A stretch of DNA of 53,679 nt. Source: Wenyingzhuangia sp. 2_MG-2023. Lineage in GTDB: Bacteria > Bacteroidota > Bacteroidia > Flavobacteriales > Flavobacteriaceae. Under the pieces are notes generated by a model. It worked only from the letters and a program-made list of their open reading frames with translations. It was not told the origin of the DNA and ran no database searches. Position numbers and translations under genes: made by a program. The stretch spans positions 1-53,679 of the forward strand of contig NZ_JAUOSB010000018.1 in NCBI RefSeq assembly GCF_030548295.1, written 5' to 3'. This document shows positions 1 through 42,363 of the stretch, piece by piece; within the stretch, counting starts at the first letter, position 1, and every line of letters starts with the position of its first letter.

Positions 1-212
1 GCATCTCCAATTCCATCATTATCAGCATCTTCTTGATTTGGATTCGCTGTATTCACACAGTTGTCTACGTCATCAGTAATTCCGTCGTTATCTGCATCGT
101 CATCACAAGCATCTCCAATTCCATCATTATCAGCATCTTCTTGATTTGGGTTTACAGTATCAATACAATTATCTACGTCATCACCAATACCATCAGCATC
201 CATGTCATTTTC
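1..212 (-). repeat. Second block of thrombospondin type 3 coding repeats, cut by window edge
   Basis: About two further units of the 36-codon calcium-binding repeat, nearly identical in DNA to the 964-1290 block (for example the NPNQEDADNDGIGDACDDD segment). The first unit is slightly divergent (DADGIGDDVDNCIDTVNPNQ). The array continues past position 1. Confidence 0.8.
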
Positions 213-2750
213 TGGTATAGGTGCTGGTGCATTTGCACATCTTGCTCCATCATTTGAGCTAGCAGCCGGTCCGTGAGCAAATAAGAAAGAAATCATATTA
301 CTTCCCGCACTCAATTGATCGGTATATTTTATTCTGTATATCTCACCATCATTTGAAGCCACATAAAAATCTCCAGCTACATCAAAATATACAGCTCCAT
401 AAGCTTCATTTTTTCCAGAAAGAATTGGCACCTGTCCAATGTTCTCAACAATCCCTGTACCCGGATCTATTCTATACAATTTGTTTGTACCTCTTTCTAC
501 AGTATACAACATATTATCATTAGAATTGAAAGCCCAATCATGATGGGTTATATCTACTGAAAGATTAAAACTTCCTAAATAATCTAGATACGTAGCAGAA
601 CTTGGATTCAAGTCTACTTTATAAACTGTAGTACTATTCCCTCTTTTAAAGTAATATATACCATTCGCATCCACATCCCCTACATAACTATTACTTGCTG
701 CATTGGGCAAACCTGAAATTGTATATTCTGTAGCTTGATAATCAGATGTAATTTTAACAATCTTTGTAGTTTCATCTGTTAAAATTCCCCAAGTATTTCC
801 ATCAATCATATTGAAACCAGTAGCATTAATAGAACTATTAGTAATATTTTCTGCAACTAACTCATAATCACCCGAAGCTAGATCTACAACATAAATATCA
901 TTGTACTGAAATAAGTACCCATCAGGACCACAAACTACTACTGAGTCATCCTTATCATCACAAACATCTCCAATTCCATCATTATCTGCATCTTCTTGAT
1001 TTGGATTCGCTGTATTCACACAGTTGTCTACGCTATCTACGATTCCATCGTTGTCTGCATCGTCATCACAAGCATCTCCAATTCCATCATTATCTGCATC
1101 TTCCTGATTTGGGTTTGCTGTATTCACACAGTTGTCTACGTCATCAGTAATTCCGTCGTTATCGGCATCATCGTCACAAGCATCTCCAATCCCGTCATTA
1201 TCGGCATCTTCCTGATTTGGATTCGCTGTATTCACACAGTTGTCTACGTCATCAGTGATTCCGTCGTTGTCTGCATCGTTACTAACAGCTCCACCACAAT
1301 TTAAAACTGTTGTAAATTCAGCAACCGTGAATGTAGCTATTTGTGTATAGTTATTCCCTGCTTTAGCTAAAAAGTCTTGATCTTGTAGAGATTGTAATGT
1401 ATAAGTCATTGTAAAAGAACCTGCTTTACCATTTCCTATACCTCCTACATTGTCTAATTTAAATCCATCAAATGGATCATTGTTTCCTAAAGACAATTCA
1501 ACATCACCTGTTGTACTTCCTGAAACAGAATTCCAACTTACGTTTGAAAATGAATTCGAGTTATCTACTTCGACAGAAAAATGACTTAAATCTTTACAAT
1601 TTTTACCACTACAACCATCATGAGAAACTTCAATCTGAATTGTATATGTATTATCTGAATTTTTCACTACCGAATTAACTCTAGTAGAAAAACCTCCTCC
1701 GTTTTCTTTATAATCAGTCTCACAATCTTCACCGTCTCCAGAACCTCCAGTGCTTTCAGTTACCACATCATTTTCAAATGTATGATGATGTAATTCACCA
1801 CCTTTCATATAGAAAGATTTCACAATTACCTGACCGTCTATGTTACTAGATGATTTTTTTTCAAAATCAGCAAAAGGAGCATAAACAGTTCCTTTTACCG
1901 TACGTGCACTGCTATTAAACTCTAAAGAAGTAGTATTATAAAAGTTAAACAAGATATATTCTCCTTCACTATCTCCAATTCCATTAAAGTTAAACATCTG
2001 CGTACTAAAAGATCCAGAAGCATCTACATTGATAATTACCGGCTTGCTGCTTGATGGCGTTCCTCCTTCAAATTGCAAAGCACTCAAACTATTAAGAACA
2101 GTTCCTGTAGTATTGATAACATTGACACCATCTTGTAGCGTAATTTTACCCGTCCCGTAAGAATCATTGATTGTTCCTGTGGCAGTCATTTGACTCATTT
2201 GAGTTGAGTATGACTCAAACTTTGTAAAAGCATCATCAAAATCTATCAACCCACTTTGGTTCACAGAACTCGCTGATTGCTTTACATTTAAAATAATCTT
2301 TGGATTGGTATCAATACTATTTGGGTCTTGATTAACTCTAGTGTTAATTGTTTGGGAAGGATTCCCAGGCATTGACTCATGAATAGTTACATTAGAAGCA
2401 TCACCAACTTTTAAATAAGTATTACTATTGATATTGATATCTCCATTTACAGAACCAAAGATGATCTCTCCATCTACATACAAACCTACTTGAGTAGTCT
2501 CAGCATTTGCGGAATCAGAAAAACCTCCATCCACATCGTGAGCGAAGCTGTAATTGTAATCAAAAGTTGCATTCCCTCCTATAGCTCCAGTTCCTTGAGA
2601 ATGACCTCCTCCAAGAAGAGCATCACCTTTCACAAATAGATCAAATCCTTGCGCAGGTTCTGTTGGGCTAATTTGGCTAATTCCAGCTTTTGTTACAAAA
2701 ACACTTAGTAGCAAAAACAAAAACAGGGTAGTTTTAGTAATTTTAGTCAT
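1..2750 (-). CDS. Secreted choice-of-anchor A / thrombospondin type 3 repeat protein (partial, 5' part)
   Basis: The reading frame is open from an ATG at 2750 to the window edge, so the C-terminus is missing (at least 916 residues). A signal peptide (MTKITKTT then a Leu/Phe-rich core) is followed by a choice-of-anchor A-like domain over roughly residues 25-330, with an early GAIGGNATF motif and a later TVYAPFADF motif. Three Asp-rich calcium-binding thrombospondin type 3 units (NPNQEDADNDGIGDACDDD type) are encoded at 964-1290. They are followed by a DUF6923-like propeller region (240-950) and then more type 3 units (1-210). Known members are secreted or cell-surface proteins. In Flavobacteriaceae such proteins often end in a type IX secretion tail, which cannot be seen here. 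The exact role (adhesion, matrix) is inference. Confidence 0.85.
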   Translation of the reverse strand, partial: MTKITKTTLFLFLLLSVFVTKAGISQISPTEPAQGFDLFVKGDALLGGGHSQGTGAIGGNATFDYNYSFAHDVDGGFSDSANAETTQVGLYVDGEIIFGSVNGDININSNTYLKVGDASNVTIHESMPGNPSQTINTRVNQDPNSIDTNPKIILNVKQSASSVNQSGLIDFDDAFTKFESYSTQMSQMTATGTINDSYGTGKITLQDGVNVINTTGTVLNSLSALQFEGGTPSSSKPVIINVDASGSFSTQMFNFNGIGDSEGEYILFNFYNTTSLEFNSSARTVKGTVYAPFADFEKKSSSNIDGQVIVKSFYMKGGELHHHTFENDVVTESTGGSGDGEDCETDYKENGGGFSTRVNSVVKNSDNTYTIQIEVSHDGCSGKNCKDLSHFSVEVDNSNSFSNVSWNSVSGSTTGDVELSLGNNDPFDGFKLDNVGGIGNGKAGSFTMTYTLQSLQDQDFLAKAGNNYTQIATFTVAEFTTVLNCGGAVSNDADNDGITDDVDNCVNTANPNQEDADNDGIGDACDDDADNDGITDDVDNCVNTANPNQEDADNDGIGDACDDDADNDGIVDSVDNCVNTANPNQEDADNDGIGDVCDDKDDSVVVCGPDGYLFQYNDIYVVDLASGDYELVAENITNSSINATGFNMIDGNTWGILTDETTKIVKITSDYQATEYTISGLPNAASNSYVGDVDANGIYYFKRGNSTTVYKVDLNPSSATYLDYLGSFNLSVDITHHDWAFNSNDNMLYTVERGTNKLYRIDPGTGIVENIGQVPILSGKNEAYGAVYFDVAGDFYVASNDGEIYRIKYTDQLSAGSNMISFLFAHGPAASSNDGARCANAPAPIPENDMDADGIGDDVDNCIDTVNPNQEDADNDGIGDACDDDADNDGITDDVDNCVNTANPNQEDADNDGIGD
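964..1290 (-). repeat. Tandem 108-bp thrombospondin type 3 coding repeats (3 units)
   Basis: Three near-identical units of 36 codons encode DDVDNCVNTANPNQEDADND and the following GIGDACDDDADNDGIT. Differences are mostly synonymous, which suggests recent duplication or homogenisation. A related block lies at 1-212, on the other side of the propeller-like domain. Confidence 0.85.
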
Positions 2751-4733: not shown

Positions 4734-6912
<2,179 letters not shown>

Positions 6913-8600: not shown

Positions 8601-8972
8601 ATGGATAAAAGCAAAAGTTTTGAAGATTTATTGGTTTGGCAAAAGGGACATGAATTTGTTTTAGAAGTCTATAAAATCACCAAACAATTCCCAAAAGAAG
8701 AAATCTATGGACTAACATCACAATTTAGGAGAGCCGCAGTTTCTATTACAGCGAACATAGCCGAAGGTTACAAAAGATTAAGCTCAAAAGAGAAATTACG
8801 ATTCTACAACATTGCACAAGCATCATTGGAAGAGTGTAAATATTTTCTGATACTCGCTAGAGATTTACAATACACAAATCAATTTCAAAAATTGAATAAT
8901 TTAATAAATGAGGTGAGTAAAATGTTAAACGCGTATTGTAGAAGTATCGCTAATAAGAACAATTATTCTTAA
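8601..8972 (+). CDS. Four helix bundle protein (23S rRNA intervening-sequence / S23 family)
   Basis: This 123-residue, mostly helical protein matches the S23/IVP-like four helix bundle family: SFEDLLVWQKGHEFVLEVYK at the start, then FPKEEIYGLTSQFRRAAVSI, TANIAEGYKR and a final NAYCRSI. Family members are often encoded in 23S rRNA intervening sequences or scattered as small single genes in Bacteroidota; their biochemical function is unknown. Here it sits inside the thiamine operon, 2 nt after thiD and 34 nt before thiE. It interrupts a normally contiguous biosynthetic set and looks like a later arrival. Confidence 0.9.
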   Translation: MDKSKSFEDLLVWQKGHEFVLEVYKITKQFPKEEIYGLTSQFRRAAVSITANIAEGYKRLSSKEKLRFYNIAQASLEECKYFLILARDLQYTNQFQKLNNLINEVSKMLNAYCRSIANKNNYS

Positions 8973-9003
8973 CTCCTTAAATTCTCAACTTCTAAAATTC
9001 ATT
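8968..9003 (+). repeat. Short intergenic repeat word before thiE
   Basis: TTCTTAACTCCTTAAATTCT followed by CAACTTCTAAAATTC. The same word (TTCTTAACTCCT) recurs at 9708 and near 10590, and in inverted form (GGAGTTA) near 10530-10560, in the other spacers of this operon. Confidence 0.55.
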
Positions 9004-9006
9004 AAA

Positions 9007-10502: not shown

Positions 10503-10511
10503 TAATGTATA

Positions 10512-10618
10512 TAGTAGTTCAGAATTTAAGGAGTTAGAACTCACAAGTGAGCAGGAGTTAAGGAGCAGGTTACTAAAGTAATACTCAAAATTCTTAACTC
10601 CTCATATTCTTAACTACT
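10512..10618. repeat. Intergenic inverted-repeat element (thiG-thiH spacer)
   Basis: Left arm CAGAATTTAAGGAGTTAGAA; right arm CTCAAAATTCTTAACTCCTC with a further ATTCTTAACTACTAA. It is the most complete copy of the element type also seen at 9655-9727 and, as a half, at 8968-9003. Confidence 0.6.
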
Positions 10619-10632
10619 AAAAATAAAAAAAT

Positions 10633-11745: not shown

Positions 11746-11756
11746 AAAACATATTA

Positions 11757-12017
11757 ATGAAAATATCCGTAGAACTTACCTTAACTCCTTTACAAAACGA
11801 GTTTGAACAACCTATTATTGATTTTATCATCAAACTAAGAGCCTCAGGATTAACCGTTCTTGAAAATCCGTTAAGTACTCAGGTGTATGGAGATTATGAC
11901 AAGGTGATGAACTTAATAACTTCTGAACTTAAGAATACCTTTGATTTAATTGACAATGGAATTTTATTCATGAAAATTGTAAAATCAGATCGTAGTGACT
12001 ATGAGCCATTTTTTTAA
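11757..12017 (+). CDS. Thiamine-binding protein, YkoF/MTH1187 family
   Basis: This 86-residue single ferredoxin-like domain resembles the thiamine-binding MTH1187/YkoF family (old DUF77): ISVELTLTPLQ at the start, then a LSTQVYGDYDKVMNLI segment. Family members bind thiamine or HMP in the cytosol and usually accompany thiamine transport genes. It lies 11 nt after thiH and overlaps the downstream transporter gene by 17 nt, so the two are probably translationally coupled. Confidence 0.8.
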   Translation: MKISVELTLTPLQNEFEQPIIDFIIKLRASGLTVLENPLSTQVYGDYDKVMNLITSELKNTFDLIDNGILFMKIVKSDRSDYEPFF

Positions 12018-17550: not shown

Positions 17551-20500
17551 CTATTTTTTCATAATTACTCTCACATTCATTTCTTCTACTTTTTTAGTAG
17601 ACAATTTAGAAGGAGATTTAAATAATAAATCTTCAGAACTTCCTGTTTTAGGGAAAGCCATCACCTCTCTAATAGAAGCTTTTTTCTCTAAAATCATCAT
17701 CAATCTATCTACTCCCCAAGCAATTCCACCATGTGGTGGTGCTCCATAATGAAACGCTTCATACATCGTGCCAACACTCTTTAACATCTCTTCTTTATTG
17801 TAACCCATATTTTTATAGGTTGCTTCTAAAATTTCTGGTTTATGAGCACGAACAGATCCTCCACCTATTTCATAACCATTTAAGATTAGGTCATATTGTT
17901 GAGCGATAATCGTTCCTATTTCCTCACCTTCTCCATTCATGTGTTTATCCAAATCATAAATAGCTGGCATTGAGAATGGATTGTGTGTAAACGTCCATCT
18001 TCCTTCATCCGTTTTCTCAAACATTGGGAAATCTACTACCCAAGCAGGTCTCAATTCCTTAGGATTGATTAATCTTAACATAGCTCCCAATTCCTGACGA
18101 ACAGCATCTAAAGCTTTATTAGCTGTAGAATAATCTGCTGCAGAGAAATAAACAATATCTCCCACTTGAGCATCTGTTACATTAATAATGTTCTGAGCAA
18201 TTTCTTCACCTAAGAATTTGATAATTGGTGATTGTAAATCATTTTCATTAACAATAATATAGGCCAATCCACCTAATCCATGTTGTTGTGCAATAGAAGT
18301 TAACTTTTCAATCTGTCCTTTAGACATACGTTTTCCTCCTTGTTCCTCAGCAGAAACCTTGATACATTTTACAATTCCACCATCTTCTATAGGCTTAGAG
18401 AACACCTGGAACGTAGTATCTTTTACAATATCTGTAATGTCTTGCATTTGCAATCCAAAGCGTAAATCTGGTCTATCACAACCATATTTATCCATCGCAT
18501 CTTTATAGGTAATCACTTCAAACGGACGTAGAATCCATTTGTTACCATATATTTTCTTTACAATAGTATTAAACATCTCTGTATTCAAATCAATGATTTG
18601 TTGCATAGATGCATAAGCCATTTCTATATCTAACTGTGTAAATTCTGGCTGACGATCTCCACGAGAATCCTCATCACGGAAACAACGAGCTATTTGGAAA
18701 TACTTTTCAAAACCACCTACCATCAACATTTGCTTGAACTGTTGTGGTGCTTGTGGCAACGTATAAAATGCTCCGGGCTCTTTACGAGAAGGCACAATAA
18801 ATTCTCTTGCTCCTTCATCTGTTCCTGCAGTTAAAATAGGTGTTTCTACCTCTAAGAAACCATCTTCATCTAATAGGTCACGAAGTAATTTAATTACTTT
18901 ATGACGGTTGACAACTGCCTTACGAACGTCTTGATTTCTATGATCTAAAAATTTGTATTCAAAACGAACCGCTTCGTTAGAGCGTGTGGCTTTTTTAATT
19001 TCAAAAGGTAAGGTTCTAGATAAATTTAAAATATCTAAATCCGTAGCTTCTAATTCAATTTTACCGGTTCTCAAACCTGCATTGTAATCACTCTCACTAC
19101 GTTGTACTATTTTACCCGAAACGGCAATCACAGATTCTGGTTTTAACCTCACCAACTCATCTAAGTTAGGGAAAGATTCTCTAGACAAACGTACTTGAAT
19201 TACTTCGTAAGAAGAATCTCGTAAATCAATAAACATCAACTCTCCATGATCTCTTACTGAACTCACCCAACCTGACAAACCAACGGTTCCATCAATATTA
19301 TCCTCAGTAATCTGAGTAATCACATGAGTTCTATATTCTTCTTTAATGATGATTGGAATTTTCGGAAGTTCTTCTTTTTCCTTAGTATTAAGTACTGAGT
19401 CTTGAGTATTAAGTTCTCCCTCTGACTTTGTACTTTGTACTTTAGACTCTGTACTCGCTGAAAGCGTAGCCAAAATCATTTCACGAACTATATTTCCTGG
19501 AGCTCCTTTTCCAATCTTTCCAATTACTTTTCCTACTAAAACTCCTGCTTTTCCTTTGTTACCTGCTTTGATATCATTAGCAATCGCTTCGTTTTCAGTA
19601 ATAGCAGCATTTACCGCATCTTGAATTTGATTTTCAGAAATGCTATTGTCTGCAAAGTATTTTTTATAATCAAATTTAGCATCTGCTAATAAAGATTCAA
19701 TCGCTTTTTGAACCAATACATTGGTTACTTTTCCATCTTTGAAAGATTTAAATATAGAGCTTAAATCTTCTATATTTTCAATCTTATCGTAATCTTCTGC
19801 TTTTAAATTATTGGTTAATGTTTTAGCAACAAAAGCAACATCTCCAATGGCATCAATTAAAGTCATTACGGTTTTAGAACGCAAAGCATCTGCCGTAAAA
19901 AACTTAGCATCTTGAGGTAAAACTCCACCTTCAATCAACTTAGATTCTACAAAATAAGGCAATACTTTAGGATCTACTGAAATACTATCTACCACATCTT
20001 TAATGGCTACAAAAGGTAAGTCTGGCTCAGAAATATAACGATAATCTGCATCGTATTCTTTCTTACGCATCACCTTGGTTTGCTTTAAAGCTTCATCCCA
20101 TAAAACTGTAGTTTGATCTGGTCTAAATTCTTTATGCTCTAAAAAGTAGTTTAATTGCTTTTCTATTTCTTCTTTTAAAGCCTCTACCATAAACTTAAAC
20201 GAGTTTAAGTTTTTAATCTCGGTACGAGGGTTTAAAACATCTGTTCCTTTGATACGTAAAGAGACAGATACATCAGATTTAAACTGACCTTTATCTAAGT
20301 TAGCTTCAGAAATCCCTAAGTTTTGTACAATACGTTGAATATATTGTGCATAAGTAGATGCATCTTCTATATTACGAATACACGGCTTGGTAACAATTTC
20401 AATTAATGGAACTCCTCCTTTGTTAAAATCTACCAAAGAAATGTTTTTCTCGTGCACCAATTTTGCAGCATCTTCTTCAACATGCACCTGCTCAATTTGT

Positions 20501-20889
20501 ACGGTAAATTGAGAACCATCATTACGATAACAAGCCACTTCTCCGTCTGGAATGATAGGATTGTGAAACTGTGTAATCTGAATATTTTTTGGATTGTCTG
20601 GGTATTCATAATGTTTACGATCCCAAGAAATTACTTCGTTAGAAAACGTAGAATTTACCGCTTTACCAAAATAAATAGCCTTTGTGATTGCTTCTTTATT
20701 AATAGCTGGCAACACTCCCATTTGACCTGTACATACCGGACAAATATTTACGTTTGCTTCTTCACTTTCTTCGTTAGCACATCCACAAAATAATTTTGAT
20801 TTTGTGTTTAATCGTACGTGCGTTTCTATCCCTGCAACTAACTCTATGTTGTTTTCTTCTAATAGAGCATTTAATCTATCTAATTCCAT
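17551..20889 (-). CDS. gatB/aspS: Fused GatB amidotransferase subunit / aspartyl-tRNA synthetase
   Basis: One 1112-residue frame joins two full enzymes. Residues 1-476 are GatB (VAGIETHVRLNTKSKLFCGC with the zinc/ammonia-domain cysteines, then a YqeY-like tail ending GKGAPGNIVREMI). Residues about 518-1112 are a bacterial AspRS: an OB-fold anticodon domain (GLSGWVSSVRDHGELMFIDL), the class II motif 2 region CFRDEDSRGDRQPEFTQLD, and motif 3 GIAWGVDRLMMIL. Residues 477-510 are a polar Ser/Thr/Glu linker. GatCAB amidates Asp-tRNA(Asn) and Glu-tRNA(Gln), so the fusion couples charging to amidation. The start overlaps the gatA stop (TAATG). Fusions of this kind are known in some Flavobacteriia. 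Whether this AspRS is non-discriminating is not settled here. Confidence 0.93.
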   Translation of the reverse strand: MELDRLNALLEENNIELVAGIETHVRLNTKSKLFCGCANEESEEANVNICPVCTGQMGVLPAINKEAITKAIYFGKAVNSTFSNEVISWDRKHYEYPDNPKNIQITQFHNPIIPDGEVACYRNDGSQFTVQIEQVHVEEDAAKLVHEKNISLVDFNKGGVPLIEIVTKPCIRNIEDASTYAQYIQRIVQNLGISEANLDKGQFKSDVSVSLRIKGTDVLNPRTEIKNLNSFKFMVEALKEEIEKQLNYFLEHKEFRPDQTTVLWDEALKQTKVMRKKEYDADYRYISEPDLPFVAIKDVVDSISVDPKVLPYFVESKLIEGGVLPQDAKFFTADALRSKTVMTLIDAIGDVAFVAKTLTNNLKAEDYDKIENIEDLSSIFKSFKDGKVTNVLVQKAIESLLADAKFDYKKYFADNSISENQIQDAVNAAITENEAIANDIKAGNKGKAGVLVGKVIGKIGKGAPGNIVREMILATLSASTESKVQSTKSEGELNTQDSVLNTKEKEELPKIPIIIKEEYRTHVITQITEDNIDGTVGLSGWVSSVRDHGELMFIDLRDSSYEVIQVRLSRESFPNLDELVRLKPESVIAVSGKIVQRSESDYNAGLRTGKIELEATDLDILNLSRTLPFEIKKATRSNEAVRFEYKFLDHRNQDVRKAVVNRHKVIKLLRDLLDEDGFLEVETPILTAGTDEGAREFIVPSRKEPGAFYTLPQAPQQFKQMLMVGGFEKYFQIARCFRDEDSRGDRQPEFTQLDIEMAYASMQQIIDLNTEMFNTIVKKIYGNKWILRPFEVITYKDAMDKYGCDRPDLRFGLQMQDITDIVKDTTFQVFSKPIEDGGIVKCIKVSAEEQGGKRMSKGQIEKLTSIAQQHGLGGLAYIIVNENDLQSPIIKFLGEEIAQNIINVTDAQVGDIVYFSAADYSTANKALDAVRQELGAMLRLINPKELRPAWVVDFPMFEKTDEGRWTFTHNPFSMPAIYDLDKHMNGEGEEIGTIIAQQYDLILNGYEIGGGSVRAHKPEILEATYKNMGYNKEEMLKSVGTMYEAFHYGAPPHGGIAWGVDRLMMILEKKASIREVMAFPKTGSSEDLLFKSPSKLSTKKVEEMNVRVIMKK
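19381..19461 (-). repeat. Intergenic-type repeat captured in frame as the GatB-AspRS linker
   Basis: The DNA for linker residues about 477-503 is made of the words AGTATTAAGTACTGAGTC, ACTTTGTACTTTGTACTTTA and CTCTGTACTC in inverted arrangement. These match the words of the non-coding thiS-thiC spacer element (4942-5047). The encoded linker (STESKVQSTKSEGELNTQ and on) is low-complexity and stop-free. Confidence 0.65.
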
Positions 20890-22286
20890 TATTGCACTTG
20901 GTTTAAGAAGTTAGCAAACTGTAAAATAGTTTGTTCTTTGTTTTTAGCTCCTGTTACTTGAATTCCAGTTTCTGTTCCAAACGGACATGTTAACGTTGGT
21001 AACTGTCCTAAACTGAAACCAACCGTATAAGCATCCGACAAATACATGGCATGTGGATTGCTTAATACTTCTCCTATTTTAGGAACAGGTCCTGGTGTTA
21101 CAGGTGATAAAATAATATCTACATTGTTAAAGTCTGCTTCAAAAGCAGCTTCAATCTCTTTTCTTAATTCTTGACCTTTTAAATAAATAGCATCGGAGAA
21201 TCCTTGAGACAATACTTGGTTACCTCCTACAATTCTACGTTTGGTTTCTTCTGTAAAGTTTTCCGAACGAGTCACCATGTAAGTTTCTTTCAAGTTTTTA
21301 CCCTCAATACGATCTCCGTAATTGGTACCATCTAATCTTGATAAGTTAGAAGCCGTTTCTGCCATCGCTAACGTATAGTAAGTAGAAACTAAGGTATCTG
21401 CATCAAAGAAATCTAATTCTTGAACTTCGTATCCTGCTGTTTTTATTTTTTCGATGGTTGCTAAAAAGTCAGCTTTTATAGTTGGATCAATTGCATCGTT
21501 CTCTATAAAGTTTTTAAAGTAACCTACTTTAATTCCTTCTGGTTTAGATGCCACTACCTCAGCATTGATTTCTTCAGAAACAATAGATGTTTGATCTTTT
21601 CCATCTTTTCCACTGATGACATTCATCACAATAGCCACATCTTCTATAGATTTTGCCAAAGGCCCTACGGTATCTGTAGACGATGCATAAGCCATCAGAC
21701 CAAAACGAGAAACTCGTCCATAAGTAGGTTTTAATCCGTAAATTTTATTGTATCCTGCTGGCTGACGAATAGAACCTCCTGTATCTCCACCAATAGAAAA
21801 CACCGTATAATCAGCAGCTACGTTTACTGCAGAACCTCCGGAAGAACCTCCTGCAACTAAACTTGTGTCGATGGCATTTTTAACACTTCCAAAAACCGTA
21901 TTTTCAGAAGAAGAACCGTGACCAAAACTATCGCAATTTTCTTTAGCCATGGGAATAGCTCCCGCATCTAACAACTTTTGAATAGCTGTGGCTGTGTAAG
22001 CTGATTTGTAATTTTTTAACAAATCTGAACTTGCAGATGTATAAGTTCCCTGAACCATGTACACATCTTTAATTCCAAAAGGAATTCCTTCTAACAAACC
22101 TATTTCTTCTCCGTTGGCAATTTTAGCATCTACTTTTGCAGCAGCTTCTAAAGCCAATTCTTCTAAAACAGTATTTACCGAATTGTATTTATTTTCTTTT
22201 AGTAAGTCCAATTTTTCTTGTACAAAAGCAGTACAAGTGTATTTTTTCGCTACTAAATCTTGATGTATTCTTTTTATTTCGCTCAT
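20889..22286 (-). CDS. gatA: Asp/Glu-tRNA amidotransferase subunit A (GatA)
   Basis: This 465-residue amidase-signature protein releases ammonia from glutamine for GatCAB. The Ser-cis-Ser-Lys elements are visible: GIPFGIKDVY with the catalytic Lys, VAGGSSGGSAVNVA with cis-Ser, and GGDTGGSIRQPAGY with the nucleophile Ser. The start is MSEIKRIHQDL. It lies between gatC and the gatB/aspS fusion on the same strand; its stop codon overlaps the next ATG by one base. Confidence 0.96.
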   Translation of the reverse strand: MSEIKRIHQDLVAKKYTCTAFVQEKLDLLKENKYNSVNTVLEELALEAAAKVDAKIANGEEIGLLEGIPFGIKDVYMVQGTYTSASSDLLKNYKSAYTATAIQKLLDAGAIPMAKENCDSFGHGSSSENTVFGSVKNAIDTSLVAGGSSGGSAVNVAADYTVFSIGGDTGGSIRQPAGYNKIYGLKPTYGRVSRFGLMAYASSTDTVGPLAKSIEDVAIVMNVISGKDGKDQTSIVSEEINAEVVASKPEGIKVGYFKNFIENDAIDPTIKADFLATIEKIKTAGYEVQELDFFDADTLVSTYYTLAMAETASNLSRLDGTNYGDRIEGKNLKETYMVTRSENFTEETKRRIVGGNQVLSQGFSDAIYLKGQELRKEIEAAFEADFNNVDIILSPVTPGPVPKIGEVLSNPHAMYLSDAYTVGFSLGQLPTLTCPFGTETGIQVTGAKNKEQTILQFANFLNQVQ

Positions 22287-22289
22287 TAT

Positions 22290-22352
22290 TCGCGCTTTTG
22301 GCTTTTAGCTCTTGGCCATTAGCTAAATGCTAACCGCTAAAGACTAAAGGCT
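22290..22352. repeat. Short intergenic repeat (gatA-gatC spacer)
   Basis: The words GGCTTTTAGCTCTTGGCC and TAAATGCTAACCGCTAAAG are near inverse and near direct copies of each other. It is another low-complexity palindromic spacer, different in word content from those of the thi operon. Confidence 0.45.
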
Positions 22353-22356
22353 AGGT

Positions 22357-22623
22357 TTACCCCTCAATTACTTTAGACACCACTAAATACCCATCTTTCT
22401 CTTTTGGAAAGTTTTCTCTAATGATTTGTTTGGTGATTTCTGAACTATTTTCTACAACATCAGCACGTAAGTCATCAATAGACATGGCATTCTTTGCATT
22501 TTGATTTGATGAATTTTGATTGATTTCTGCATTTCTAATTACATCAAACAATTGATCCACCGCCTCAGAAGACTTTGCTCCTTTGATACTAGACAAAATG
22601 TCTACAGGCATTATTTTACTCAT
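22357..22623 (-). CDS. gatC: Asp/Glu-tRNA amidotransferase subunit C (GatC), divergent
   Basis: This 88-residue protein is recognised as GatC by its C-terminal half, SIDDLRADVV (the LReD motif) and a final FPKEKDGYLVVSKVIEG (usually PxxExGyFxVPKVIE), and by its place before gatA. GatC bridges GatA and GatB. The N-terminal half is divergent, with a Asn/Ser-rich stretch (NQNSSNQNAKNA). Slightly shorter than typical GatC. Confidence 0.75.
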   Translation of the reverse strand: MSKIMPVDILSSIKGAKSSEAVDQLFDVIRNAEINQNSSNQNAKNAMSIDDLRADVVENSSEITKQIIRENFPKEKDGYLVVSKVIEG

Positions 22624-37556: not shown

Positions 37557-37735
37557 ACGGTAAAATAAGTAAGTGCTTTTAGAACGGTAAAAAGAGAATT
37601 GCTATTGTTTTCGTATCAATAAAAAAGGAATTATTTTTCGCACGTTAAAAAAGAGAATTACTATTGTTTTTGTATCAATAAAAGGGAGTTGTTCTACCAA
37701 TAGTAAAAAGAGATCCGTTGTTCTTTATAGTGTAA
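37557..37735 (+). repeat. Degenerate direct repeats, unit about 58 bp
   Basis: Two units (37589-37624 and 37648-37683) share AAAAAGAGAATT, CTATTGTTTT and GTATCAATAAAA, differing at two bases. A third unit (about 37705-37735) is degenerate, and a short ACGGTAAAA-type start word appears at 37557, 37583, 37641 (ACGTTAAAA) and about 37700 (ATAGTAAAA). Spacing is about 26, 58 and 59 bp. This could be iterons, an origin or a protein-binding array. Confidence 0.6.
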
Positions 37736-39835: not shown

Positions 39836-41806
39836 TTATTTTAAAAAACTACTATTGAAATTTGAAATCCCTTTTTCTAACCAAGTATTATACAAATCAA
39901 CATCTGGAGTATAAGCAACAGGATCTATCAAGTTTTCCTCATTATGATCCATAAGCACGTACATAGGCTGTGTATTTGTCTTGTATTTTATCGTTTGAAG
40001 TTCACTCCACTTCTGTCCAATATATTTTAATTTCTTACCAGGTTTAAGTTTAGAGTCTACAACTTCACTTGCTTCTAACGGACGCTTATCATCCACATAT
40101 AATGAAATTAGGATAACATCGTTTTTGAGCTTTTCTAAAACTTTCGATTTTACCCAAACATTTTGCTCCATTTTTCTACAATTTACACATGCATACCCAG
40201 TAAAATCTATCATAACTGGTTTTCCTACTTTTTTTGCATAAGCCAAACCTTTATCATAATCATCGAAAGCCAATATATCATGTGGAGGCATTAAATGAGC
40301 TCCTTCAGGAAGGTCATCATGATTTGTTGAACCAGATCCTAATTGGGTATTTCCTACACCGTATGGCGATTCACTATAGTGTTGCGGAGGAGAAAAAGCA
40401 CTAATCAAATTAAGTGGTGCTCCCCAAAGTCCTGGAATCATATAGATTGTAAAAGAAATCACCAACAATCCTAAACCTAATCTACCTACCGAAATATGTG
40501 TTAATGGCGAATCGTGTGGTAATTGTATTTTTCCGAACAGATAAAAAGCTAAAGTTCCAAATACAGCAATCCATATCGCAATAAAAACTTCGCGTTCTAA
40601 CCAATGTAATTGTAAAACCAAATCGGCATTTGATAAAAATTTAAATGCTAATGCTAATTCTAAAAACCCTAAAACAACTTTCACGGTATTTAACCACCCT
40701 CCAGATTTTGGTAGCGAATTTAACCAACCTGGAAAAGCCGCAAATAAAGCAAACGGTAAGGCTATTGCTAAAGAAAACCCAAGCATACCTATAATTGGCC
40801 CTACTTGACTTCCTCCTGCTGCAGCCTCAACAAGTAACGTTCCTACAATAGGTCCTGTGCAAGAAAATGAAACAATAGCTAATGCTAATGCCATAAAAAA
40901 GATACCTATTAACCCTCCCCTATCTGCTTGCGAATCTACTTTGTTTGCCCATGAGTTAGGCAGCATAATTTCGAAAGCTCCTAAAAACGATGCAGCAAAC
41001 ACTAATAACAATATGAAAAATATAATATTAAACCAAACGTTGGTAGATAAAGCATTTAAAGCATCTGCTCCAAATATTAAACTAACCAAAATGCCTAATA
41101 ACACATAAATTACAATAATCGACAATCCATATATAATAGCATTTTTTATACCTGCAGCTTTTGTCTTACTTTGTTTGGTAAAGAAACTTACCGTCATAGG
41201 AATCATAGGGAACACACACGGAGTTAACAAGGCTGTAAAGCCAGAAAGAAATGCGATTAAGAATATTCCCAATAGACCTTTTTTAGAATCTTTTGCATTT
41301 ACATCAACCGTAGCTACTTCTGTTACTTGTAATTTAGAATCATTAGCAACAACATTGCTGTCTGATAAATTAAATTGTAAATCGACTTCTGTAGGCGGTA
41401 AACATCTTGAATCATCGCATACCATAAATTCCACAACACCTTTTAAAGTAGTTTTATCACCTAAAACCTCTACTAATTGTTCGAAAATTGCATTTTTTTC
41501 GAAAAATTTAATTTTCATTTCAAAAATAGGATCGTCAATTGTATGCCCTTCTTCCTCTATCGTATTTCCAACGATTTTGAAAGCACCATTTTCATCATCA
41601 AACATAAACGTTGTTGGAATTGGACCATTTTCTGGAACGTTCTGCGAATACAAATGCCAACCTGCTTCTATATTTGCTTTTGCAATTAACATGTATTTGC
41701 TTTCCGAAATTTTCTCAACAGATGTTTGCCATTTTACAGGTTCTACAATCTGAGAATTCCCAAATGTCACACATAACAAAGAGAATATTAAAATAAGTTT
41801 TTTCAT
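39836..41806 (-). CDS. dsbD: Thiol:disulfide interchange protein DsbD
   Basis: This 656-residue protein has a signal peptide ([19 protein letters not shown]), an N-terminal DsbD-alpha domain with its Cys pair ([16 protein letters not shown]), eight membrane segments including [10 protein letters not shown] and [12 protein letters not shown] (the transmembrane Cys pair), and a C-terminal thioredoxin-like domain with CVNC ([10 protein letters not shown]). It moves electrons from cytosolic thioredoxin to periplasmic substrates. A frameshifted copy of its alpha domain lies directly upstream. The neighbouring TlpA-like protein is a plausible electron acceptor. Confidence 0.95.
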
Positions 41807-41824
41807 TTTTAATGTCTTAATAAA

Positions 41825-42270
41825 TTATTTTATTTCAAAAAATAAATCGCCTTCTGTGGGTGGCAAACATCTAGTATCATCACAGACCATAAACTCTACC
41901 GTTGCATTTACTTTGAACGGGACTTTATTTTTAATTGTATTCGTTGTTTAAATACAGCTTTAGTTTCAAAATATTTAATTTCCATATCAAAAATAGGATC
42001 ATTAATAGTATGTCCTAGACCTTCTTTTGTATTTCCTTTTTTTAAATAATTAGCATTGCTTTTAAAAGAAAAAGTTGTTGGGACAGGTGCGTTTTCTGGC
42101 ACATTTTGAGAATACAAATGCCAATTTTCATCAATAGTAGCAGTTGCAATTAATTGATATTCCTTCTCTGATGTTTTGACTACTTTTGTAGCCCATTTTA
42201 CGAGTTCTAAAATTTGAGAATTACCCATCGTAAAAACTAACAAGGCAAGTAATAAGATACATTTTTTCAT
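41825..42270 (-). pseudogene. Stand-alone DsbD-alpha domain paralogue with a frameshift
   Basis: The frame from 42270 gives a signal peptide (MKKCILLLALLVFTMGNSQ) and a domain very like the DsbD N-terminus ([18 protein letters not shown]), then stops at 41908 after FKQRIQLKIKSRSK. In another frame the missing end is intact: TIKNKVPFKVNATVEFMVCD, then DTRCLPPTEGDLFFEIK and stop at 41825. The shift lies near 41925-41945, in an A-rich run. If the shift is real, the product loses its Cys pair; if it is a sequencing error, this is an intact small periplasmic domain. Confidence 0.8.
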
Positions 42271-42363
42271 TTTTATGATTTATCATAGATCTTTAGAAGA
42301 GCTATTATCATTAAATAACCCTTTTCTTATTTCTTTGAATAACCAACTCTTACGGAGAAACAA

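Follow-up and report, generated by a model that had tools for sequence, protein, structure and literature searches.

The window, by which we mean the whole stretch of DNA analysed, is 53,679 nucleotides long and equals one whole contig (C88) of Wenyingzhuangia sp. 2_MG-2023. The genome around it comprises 3.98 Mb and is 99.99% complete. A gatB-aspS fusion gene lies on the minus strand at 17551..20889. It is a single open frame of 1112 residues with no internal stop, by which AspRS and GatB are covalently joined in one polypeptide. GatB takes up residues 1–477, the linker roughly residues 478–517, and a bacterial-type AspRS with a GAD domain residues 518–1112. This division fits that of a preliminary description of the same DNA (GatB 1–476, AspRS about 518–1112), since the GatB profiles of NCBIfam and Pfam span residues 13–477 and the AspRS profiles residues 518–1110. 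The GAD domain was detected in the AspRS half with Pfam, and it is given as a mark of the bacterial-type enzyme in an earlier account (PMC4206432). The fusion protein matched 24 NCBIfam families, and no GatB-AspRS fusion family was among them. Fused GatB-AspRS proteins are presumably named in NCBI annotation. The AlphaFold model of the whole fusion, obtained with 33 input sequences, was poor (mean pLDDT 47.6) and was set aside.

The gatA gene (20889..22286, minus strand) overlaps the fusion gene by one base. Its product of 465 residues matched Pfam Amidase with an E-value of 1.2e-114, and its best NCBIfam match was gatA at 432.8 bits, under the cut-off of 481.1. A divergent gatC-like gene of 88 residues was located at 22357..22623 on the minus strand, with both profile scores below cut-off (Pfam GatC 16.8 bits against 23, TIGR00135 20.3 bits against 47.1). 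All 80 loci compared, the best 80 of at least 561, have the same order gatC-gatA-gatB.aspS, with a gatC homologue upstream of gatA. The 70-base spacer between gatC and gatA (22287..22356) carries an inverted repeat of heptads with TTTAGCN and GCTAAAA units, and these heptads differ from those of the linker. Of the other Wenyingzhuangia loci, four were read at this junction (L028 = L055, L031 = L056, L032 = L057, and L033, but not L029 or L030), and all four have no spacer, the gatC stop being directly next to the gatA start. At this junction, Ochrovirga and four Polaribacter loci do have spacers, but of sequences different from the window's. Judging from these sequences, such elements seem to be gained and lost between genes over times comparable to species divergence.

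The linker-coding DNA (19375..19470, minus strand) bears two oppositely oriented, degenerate arrays of 7-base units flanking a short core. AGTACAA-type units come first and are followed by units of the TACTTAA/TACTCA type. On the plus strand, GTACTTTGTACT is found at 19430–19441 and AGTACTGAGT at 19391–19400. The spacer at 4938..5049 lies between genes assigned to ThiS and ThiC with Pfam, and its AGTAC heptads form an inverted pair of arrays. It contains GTACTTTGTACT as well, together with AGTACTGAGT as the reverse complement. A 7-base period is present in this spacer and in the linker (19425–19455), and the lag-7 identity of the window's linker is 0.66. The longest stretch found common to both is a 40-nt inverted match with 80% complementarity, 5010–5049 with 19375–19414. 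The pattern AGTACNNAGTAC has six matches in the window, five in the thiS-thiC spacer and one in the linker, against 0.06 expected, and none of 100 shuffles reached six. The preliminary description had claimed that inverted words are common to the linker and this spacer, and the excess bears it out. The fold z value was –3.05 for the linker, with 4 of 200 shuffles folding equally well, and –3.93 for the thiS-thiC element, with 0 of 200.

Further copies of the repeat beyond the window, on which the same description had made its idea depend, are present. Genome-wide, AGTACNNAGTAC has 26 matches against 2 with the reversed pattern. These 26 matches fall in 14 places, and 10 of the 14 overlap no frame of 80 residues or more. 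By this mechanical test the linker (L009), L001, L010, and L024 do overlap such a frame. On reading, L010 and L024 resemble spacers in which the frame is spurious or too long, and L002 lies within the first codons of a gene; we thus count the 14 places as what look like 11 spacers, the linker and two coding matches apparently due to chance. Eight of the 11 spacers, by reading, consist of two opposed 7-base arrays around a core like the linker, and several occupy 80–118 bases between neighbouring frames. The heptad family has many copies beyond chance, mostly intergenic, and the window's linker has the same unit and the same inverted arrangement. The AGTAC word was counted 26, 32, 46, 33, 30, and 42 times in six Wenyingzhuangia genomes (reversed control 1–7) and 30 times in Ochrovirga (reversed control 2). 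The other 53 of the 60 genomes searched gave 0–9 matches, and their reversed control gave 0–10. Within this set of 60, dispersed AGTAC heptads are thus a peculiarity of Wenyingzhuangia and Ochrovirga. The linker of W. gilva (L032 = L057) is without a strict AGTACNNAGTAC word.

According to the preliminary description, a dispersed repeat in a former gatB-aspS spacer turned coding and thereby joined the two genes. In size, in repeat unit and in having inverted arms, the linker does resemble the intergenic heptad elements found in spacers of this genome. However, the distribution of the fusion argues against such a joining. The full-length fusion was found in six of seven Wenyingzhuangia genomes, and in the seventh, an 85% complete assembly, the contig stops at the start of the linker. 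Among the best 80 of at least 561 named loci, the closest relatives by fused protein are three Wenyingzhuangia species (Flavobacteriaceae) with 89–93% identity, and the protein of Ochrovirga pacifica is 90% identical. All 80 match nearly the whole query and thus carry the fusion in many Flavobacteriaceae genera, although a set chosen by score is biased towards full-length fusions and is silent on unfused relatives. When 196 genomes were sampled evenly across the order, three gave a whole-query match, the window's genome included and all of one family. Therefore, the fusion is patchy. Within the best 80 of at least 561 loci the ends of the linker are conserved, and the linkers differ greatly between genera. 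Because the same fusion occurs with very different linkers across genera, the AGTAC repeat is unlikely to have made it. The AGTAC heptads, frequent only in Wenyingzhuangia and Ochrovirga among the 60 genomes, are therefore also younger than the fusion. No separate gatB over cut-off was found in 37 genomes (18 fused and 19 unfused), with one weak match of 19.6 bits in G205. The 18 genomes, chosen for carrying the fusion, have only the fused gatB over cut-off, in frames of 1114–1160 residues, and the 19 genomes without the fusion have no gatB over cut-off. An ancestral joining by a different repeat is conceivable, and the 80 loci are a selection by score. Even so, the joining of the genes by a repeat is improbable in our view. 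What stands of the capture claim is that the linker is built like the dispersed, lineage-specific intergenic heptads of this genome; what does not stand is that the repeat made the fusion. Fused relatives with unrelated linkers, which had been named beforehand as evidence against capture, were found, but many of those linkers are themselves made of repeats. The comparisons indicate that the fusion predates the genus and that repeats entered an already existing linker repeatedly, the entry of AGTAC being later than the fusion.

The linkers of the relatives were examined for the 7-base period, and a sequence was scored as positive when its best 35-base stretch had a lag-7 identity of 0.57 or more. 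Among the best 80 of at least 561 loci, 44 of 80 linkers were positive and 36 stayed below the threshold; of the chunks from the same loci, 27 of 633 were positive in intergenic DNA and 23 of 4421 in coding DNA. With one representative per enzyme cluster, the positives were 40 of 72 at 97% identity and 17 of 32 at 90% identity. Against windows taken from the same gene, p values of 0.05 or less at lag 7 were obtained for 54 of the 80 linkers. Linker periods of 7, 14, and 21 stand out and those of 5, 8, and 9 do not. The units, obtained by reading, vary by lineage and include AGTACAA, AAGACCN, ACCAACA, AAAGTTC, AAAAGCC, and AAGAAAC.

Linkers are polar in the sense reading, with 13% VILMFWYC compared with 63% in the antisense reading (orientation counts that are descriptive), and their A content is 0.45 against 0.36 in control windows. 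The look of a repeat might therefore be a mere by-product of selection for a polar, low-complexity tether. However, selection on amino acids predicts periods divisible by three, and the best period was 7, 14 or 21 in 41 of the 45 linkers that were significant over all periods tried. Period 7 was present in 55% of the linkers, exceeding periods 5, 6, 8, and 9 (0 to 12.5%). A period of 7 is not divisible by three, so that the DNA period in itself is a sign that the linker originated from repeats. Selection for a tether also cannot account for the words of 12 to 16 bases that are present elsewhere in the genome, and we regard the by-product explanation as highly improbable.

A more serious alternative is that slippage within a tolerant linker generates the heptad arrays on the spot, without any copying of dispersed elements. 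The much higher frequency of period-7 DNA in linkers than in intergenic chunks is in line with slippage. The linker of Confluentibacter sediminis is a nearly perfect array with a lag-7 identity of 1.0, and that of Flavivirga aquatica (L070) is the only match to the ACC pattern in its genome; both fit slippage as well. On the other hand, the AGTAC unit has its counterpart in a family that is spread through the genome and peculiar to the lineage. Furthermore, five linkers contain a REP-like word, which is no tandem array, and the three of these genomes that were searched have 20, 29, and 15 copies of CTGAGCGNAGTCGAAG, the linker copy included, while the reversed control gave 0 in all 60 genomes. 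On balance, slippage as the source is somewhat unlikely, though a real candidate. Several genomes without the REP-like word in the linker are equally rich or richer in CTGAGCGNAGTCGAAG, with up to 64 copies. The 11 searched genomes with an ACC linker have 1–37 matches to the ACC units and some genomes without such a linker have 9–19; the reversed control is uninformative here because the reversed pattern matches the same arrays. The REP and ACC counts suggest that abundance in the genome may favour, but does not determine, the type of linker. The genome of Ochrovirga is rich in AGTAC heptads, yet its linker has other heptads.

Pairs of relatives were compared at the linker and at the four-fold sites of the same gene. 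Tamlana sedimentorum and T. laminarinivorans (L077 and L079) have enzymes that are 99.1% identical and four-fold sites that are 90.5% identical, yet their linker DNA is only 51% identical, one linker being of GTT-type heptads and the other having the REP-like word. L068 and L081 have 84.0% identical four-fold sites and 62% identical linkers, and the values for L085 and L098 are 78.3% and 53%. In L065 and L077, 84.8% of four-fold sites are identical and 96% of the linker is in common. The linker DNA of L030 and L055 is 95% identical despite four-fold sites of 61.3%, which indicates that some linkers are conserved or exchanged and do not change freely. A tree was made from 83 fused proteins with the linker left out, and repeat-pattern labels were mapped on it. 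The numbers of label changes per carriers were 13/17 for ACC, 9/11 for AGC, 6/6 for GTT, 5/5 for REP, 4/5 for AAC, 3/3 for the palindrome and 2/5 for AGTAC; the labels came from patterns written after the linkers had been read, and thus these counts are descriptive. The comparisons indicate that linkers are replaced and not only diverging.

Palindromes of the GGGACA[AG]GTC type were noticed in three linkers, L109, L133, and L104, with fold z values of –4.57, –5.25, and –2.22, respectively. A hairpin as a general function of the linker was considered and rejected, because z values of –2 or lower were obtained for 10 of 80 linkers and for 24 of 240 control windows. Robustness of the heptads to the reading frame was also rejected, as 0 of 80 linkers are open in all three sense frames.

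The routes to Asn-tRNA(Asn) were next surveyed by gene content. GatB and AspRS are over cut-off, GatA is recognised by Pfam, and GatC is recognised by its position and by profiles under threshold, which gives the gene set for tRNA-dependent Asn synthesis. GlnRS was found in 26 of 26 genomes searched, the window's genome included. Therefore, GatCAB is not required for Gln. A search for asnS elsewhere in the genome had been proposed as a check; no AsnRS over cut-off was found in the window's genome, in G001–G005, in Ochrovirga or in Flavicella. For this reason, Asn-tRNA(Asn) is very likely made by the fused pair in the window's genome. The gene asnS is present in 45 of 53 fused and 12 of 12 unfused genome handles (65 in total), and the eight without it include one genome twice (G005 = G202). 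AsnA was found in 0 of 26 genomes. All 8 unfused genomes and none of the 18 fused ones have a two-piece form of AsnB (456–480 bits with neighbours), another AsnB-like protein over cut-off was found in 7 of the 18 fused genomes, and the window's genome has no AsnB over cut-off, the best score being 55.6 bits. The genomes compared for gene content are related and hand-chosen, and for that reason no p value is given. The seven genomes with an AsnB-like protein and the 45 handles keeping asnS imply that the fusion is usually not the sole route. In the window's genome, its gene content suggests that the fusion is probably the sole source of Asn-tRNA(Asn). One source names a tRNA(Asn) with a U1-A72 pair as a feature of tRNA-dependent Asn synthesis (PMC4206432). 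In the window and the 35 loci scanned there is no tRNA(Asn), so the pair was not seen there.

A second, stand-alone AspRS of about 595 residues with 38–39% identity is present in 7 of 7 genomes of the genus. The preliminary description held that the fusion ties AspRS to GatCAB one-to-one; this is right for the fused AspRS and does not hold overall, given the second enzyme. At the position of E. coli Leu30, all 86 fused rows, from 83 distinct loci, have His, and all 7 stand-alone enzymes, which come from this genus only, have Lys. At the position of E. coli Lys81, the residue is Asp in 82 of 86 fused rows and Lys in 7 of 7 stand-alone enzymes. The P. aeruginosa enzyme, with the PDB name Asp/Asn, reads RDHG, i.e. 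it has His at the Leu30 position. We take His at E. coli AspRS position 30 to favour tRNA(Asn), from work on the P. aeruginosa enzyme. The stand-alone AspRS might instead make Asp-tRNA(Asn), with the AspRS half of the fusion as a passive or scaffold domain. However, long blocks of the fused AspRS are invariant across 33 sequences, and this enzyme has His like the P. aeruginosa Asp/Asn enzyme, whereas the stand-alone enzyme has Lys. These residues make the scaffold explanation quite improbable.

Considering all of the above, we favour, with a probability of about 0.7, the reading that the locus encodes a one-polypeptide, two-step Asn-tRNA(Asn) enzyme whose tether has been overwritten by repeats. 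On this reading, the fusion arose before the genus, and no other source of Asn-tRNA(Asn) is visible in Wenyingzhuangia, Ochrovirga, and Flavicella. At first, the fused AspRS half would put Asp on tRNA(Asn). Second, the tethered GatB together with GatA and GatC from the adjoining genes would amidate Asp-tRNA(Asn) to the Asn form. The stand-alone AspRS would meanwhile serve tRNA(Asp). The loss of asnS in Wenyingzhuangia, Ochrovirga, and Flavicella would have left the fusion module as the only visible source there, and in most carriers examined tRNA-dependent Asn synthesis would run alongside AsnRS. The tether of about 40 residues would be free to change as long as it stayed open, flexible, polar and in frame. 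In many lineages it appears to have been overwritten by short repeats, mostly of 7-base period and sometimes with a REP-like word, several of which are dispersed in the same genome. Such repeats in one orientation would satisfy the needs of the tether, and they may have entered by recombination or slippage. The tRNA specificity and the channelling are our inferences, and so is the idea that linkers change through copying of dispersed elements. A bolder form of this reading makes the linker a recurrent in-frame landing site for dispersed repeats, often swapped between sister species and rewritten harmlessly, and makes the fused AspRS a dedicated, not merely relaxed, tRNA(Asn) enzyme that would leave the stand-alone AspRS free to stay strict and would have allowed the loss of asnS and asnB. 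We put this form forward tentatively, as something that may be the case but probably claims too much.

The tRNA-dependent Asn pathway and bacterial transamidosomes are already known. In the Asn-transamidosome of P. aeruginosa (PDB 4WJ3), a bacterial-type AspRS works with GatCAB, and both halves of the fusion match its chains. The enzymes of P. aeruginosa meet via the complex, whereas here AspRS and GatB are joined covalently. An AspRS-GatC fusion (NCBIfam NF009460) is similar in that AspRS is joined to a Gat subunit, but the subunit is a different one; the present fusion scored 480 bits against the cut-off of 1379, with the match over the AspRS part. Rickettsia palindromic elements are dispersed repeats inserted in frame into genes. 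In contrast to them, the case described here concerns one site, the GatB-AspRS linker, with unrelated families by lineage, mostly heptad arrays. Synthesis of Asn on tRNA beside AsnRS is reported for Deinococcus, Thermus, and Bdellovibrio in PMC4206432, where Bdellovibrio genes were used to rescue an E. coli laboratory asparagine auxotroph. According to the same source, Deinococcus radiodurans and Thermus thermophilus resemble the present case in having GlnRS, GatCAB, two AspRS and Asn made on tRNA(Asn), the last of which is presumed here. Their second AspRS is archaeal-type and separate (PMC4206432), whereas here it is bacterial-type and GatB-fused, and AsnRS is gone in the genus. Direct repeats of the heptamer TAACTGA are reported for Beggiatoaceae, cyanobacteria and five Bacteroidetes, and also for Gramella and Aequorivita (PMC4679880). 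They are alike in being 7-base direct repeats, mostly in spacers, with a patchy distribution. Their unit is another one, one set lies within purC near the gene end, and no recurrent protein linker is mentioned in the passages considered (PMC4679880). A laboratory gatC-gatA fusion of Mycobacterium is named in PMC7541841. The titles and abstract openings searched, with subscription journals outside this scope, gave no mention of the GatB-AspRS fusion or its linker. No report was found in the literature searched of a single protein linker being rewritten time and again by heptad repeats.

This system offers a natural experiment on indirect aminoacylation, as the fused two-step enzyme would be accessory in most carriers examined and is apparently essential in the lineages that lost AsnRS. 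Whether a covalent link can stand in for the transamidosome thereby becomes open to direct test. Short dispersed repeats are commonly regarded as spacer DNA; the present case suggests that they can, more than once, provide the linker coding sequence of a central enzyme.

Some other repeats were noticed. In Flavivirga sp. 57AJ16, a long, nearly perfect heptad array (AACACTG / AATACTG) is located at L114:7280–7352, where no frame is listed. Another repeat, which has an 8/16-base period (ATTCTTAACTCC... and words like it), is found in spacers of the window's thiamine cluster at 8965–9006, 10503–10632, and 11746–11994. A 59-bp tandem repeat of about two copies is placed at 37561–37683, in a long stretch without a frame of 150 residues or more. 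At 41477–42275, two long pairs of direct repeats, 206 and 93 nt in length and 71 and 75% alike, lie about 465 bases apart. The start of the window (2–1373), which perhaps encodes a repeat protein, has a 108-bp tandem repeat and 193-nt repeats whose copies are 89, 87, and 63% similar to the first.
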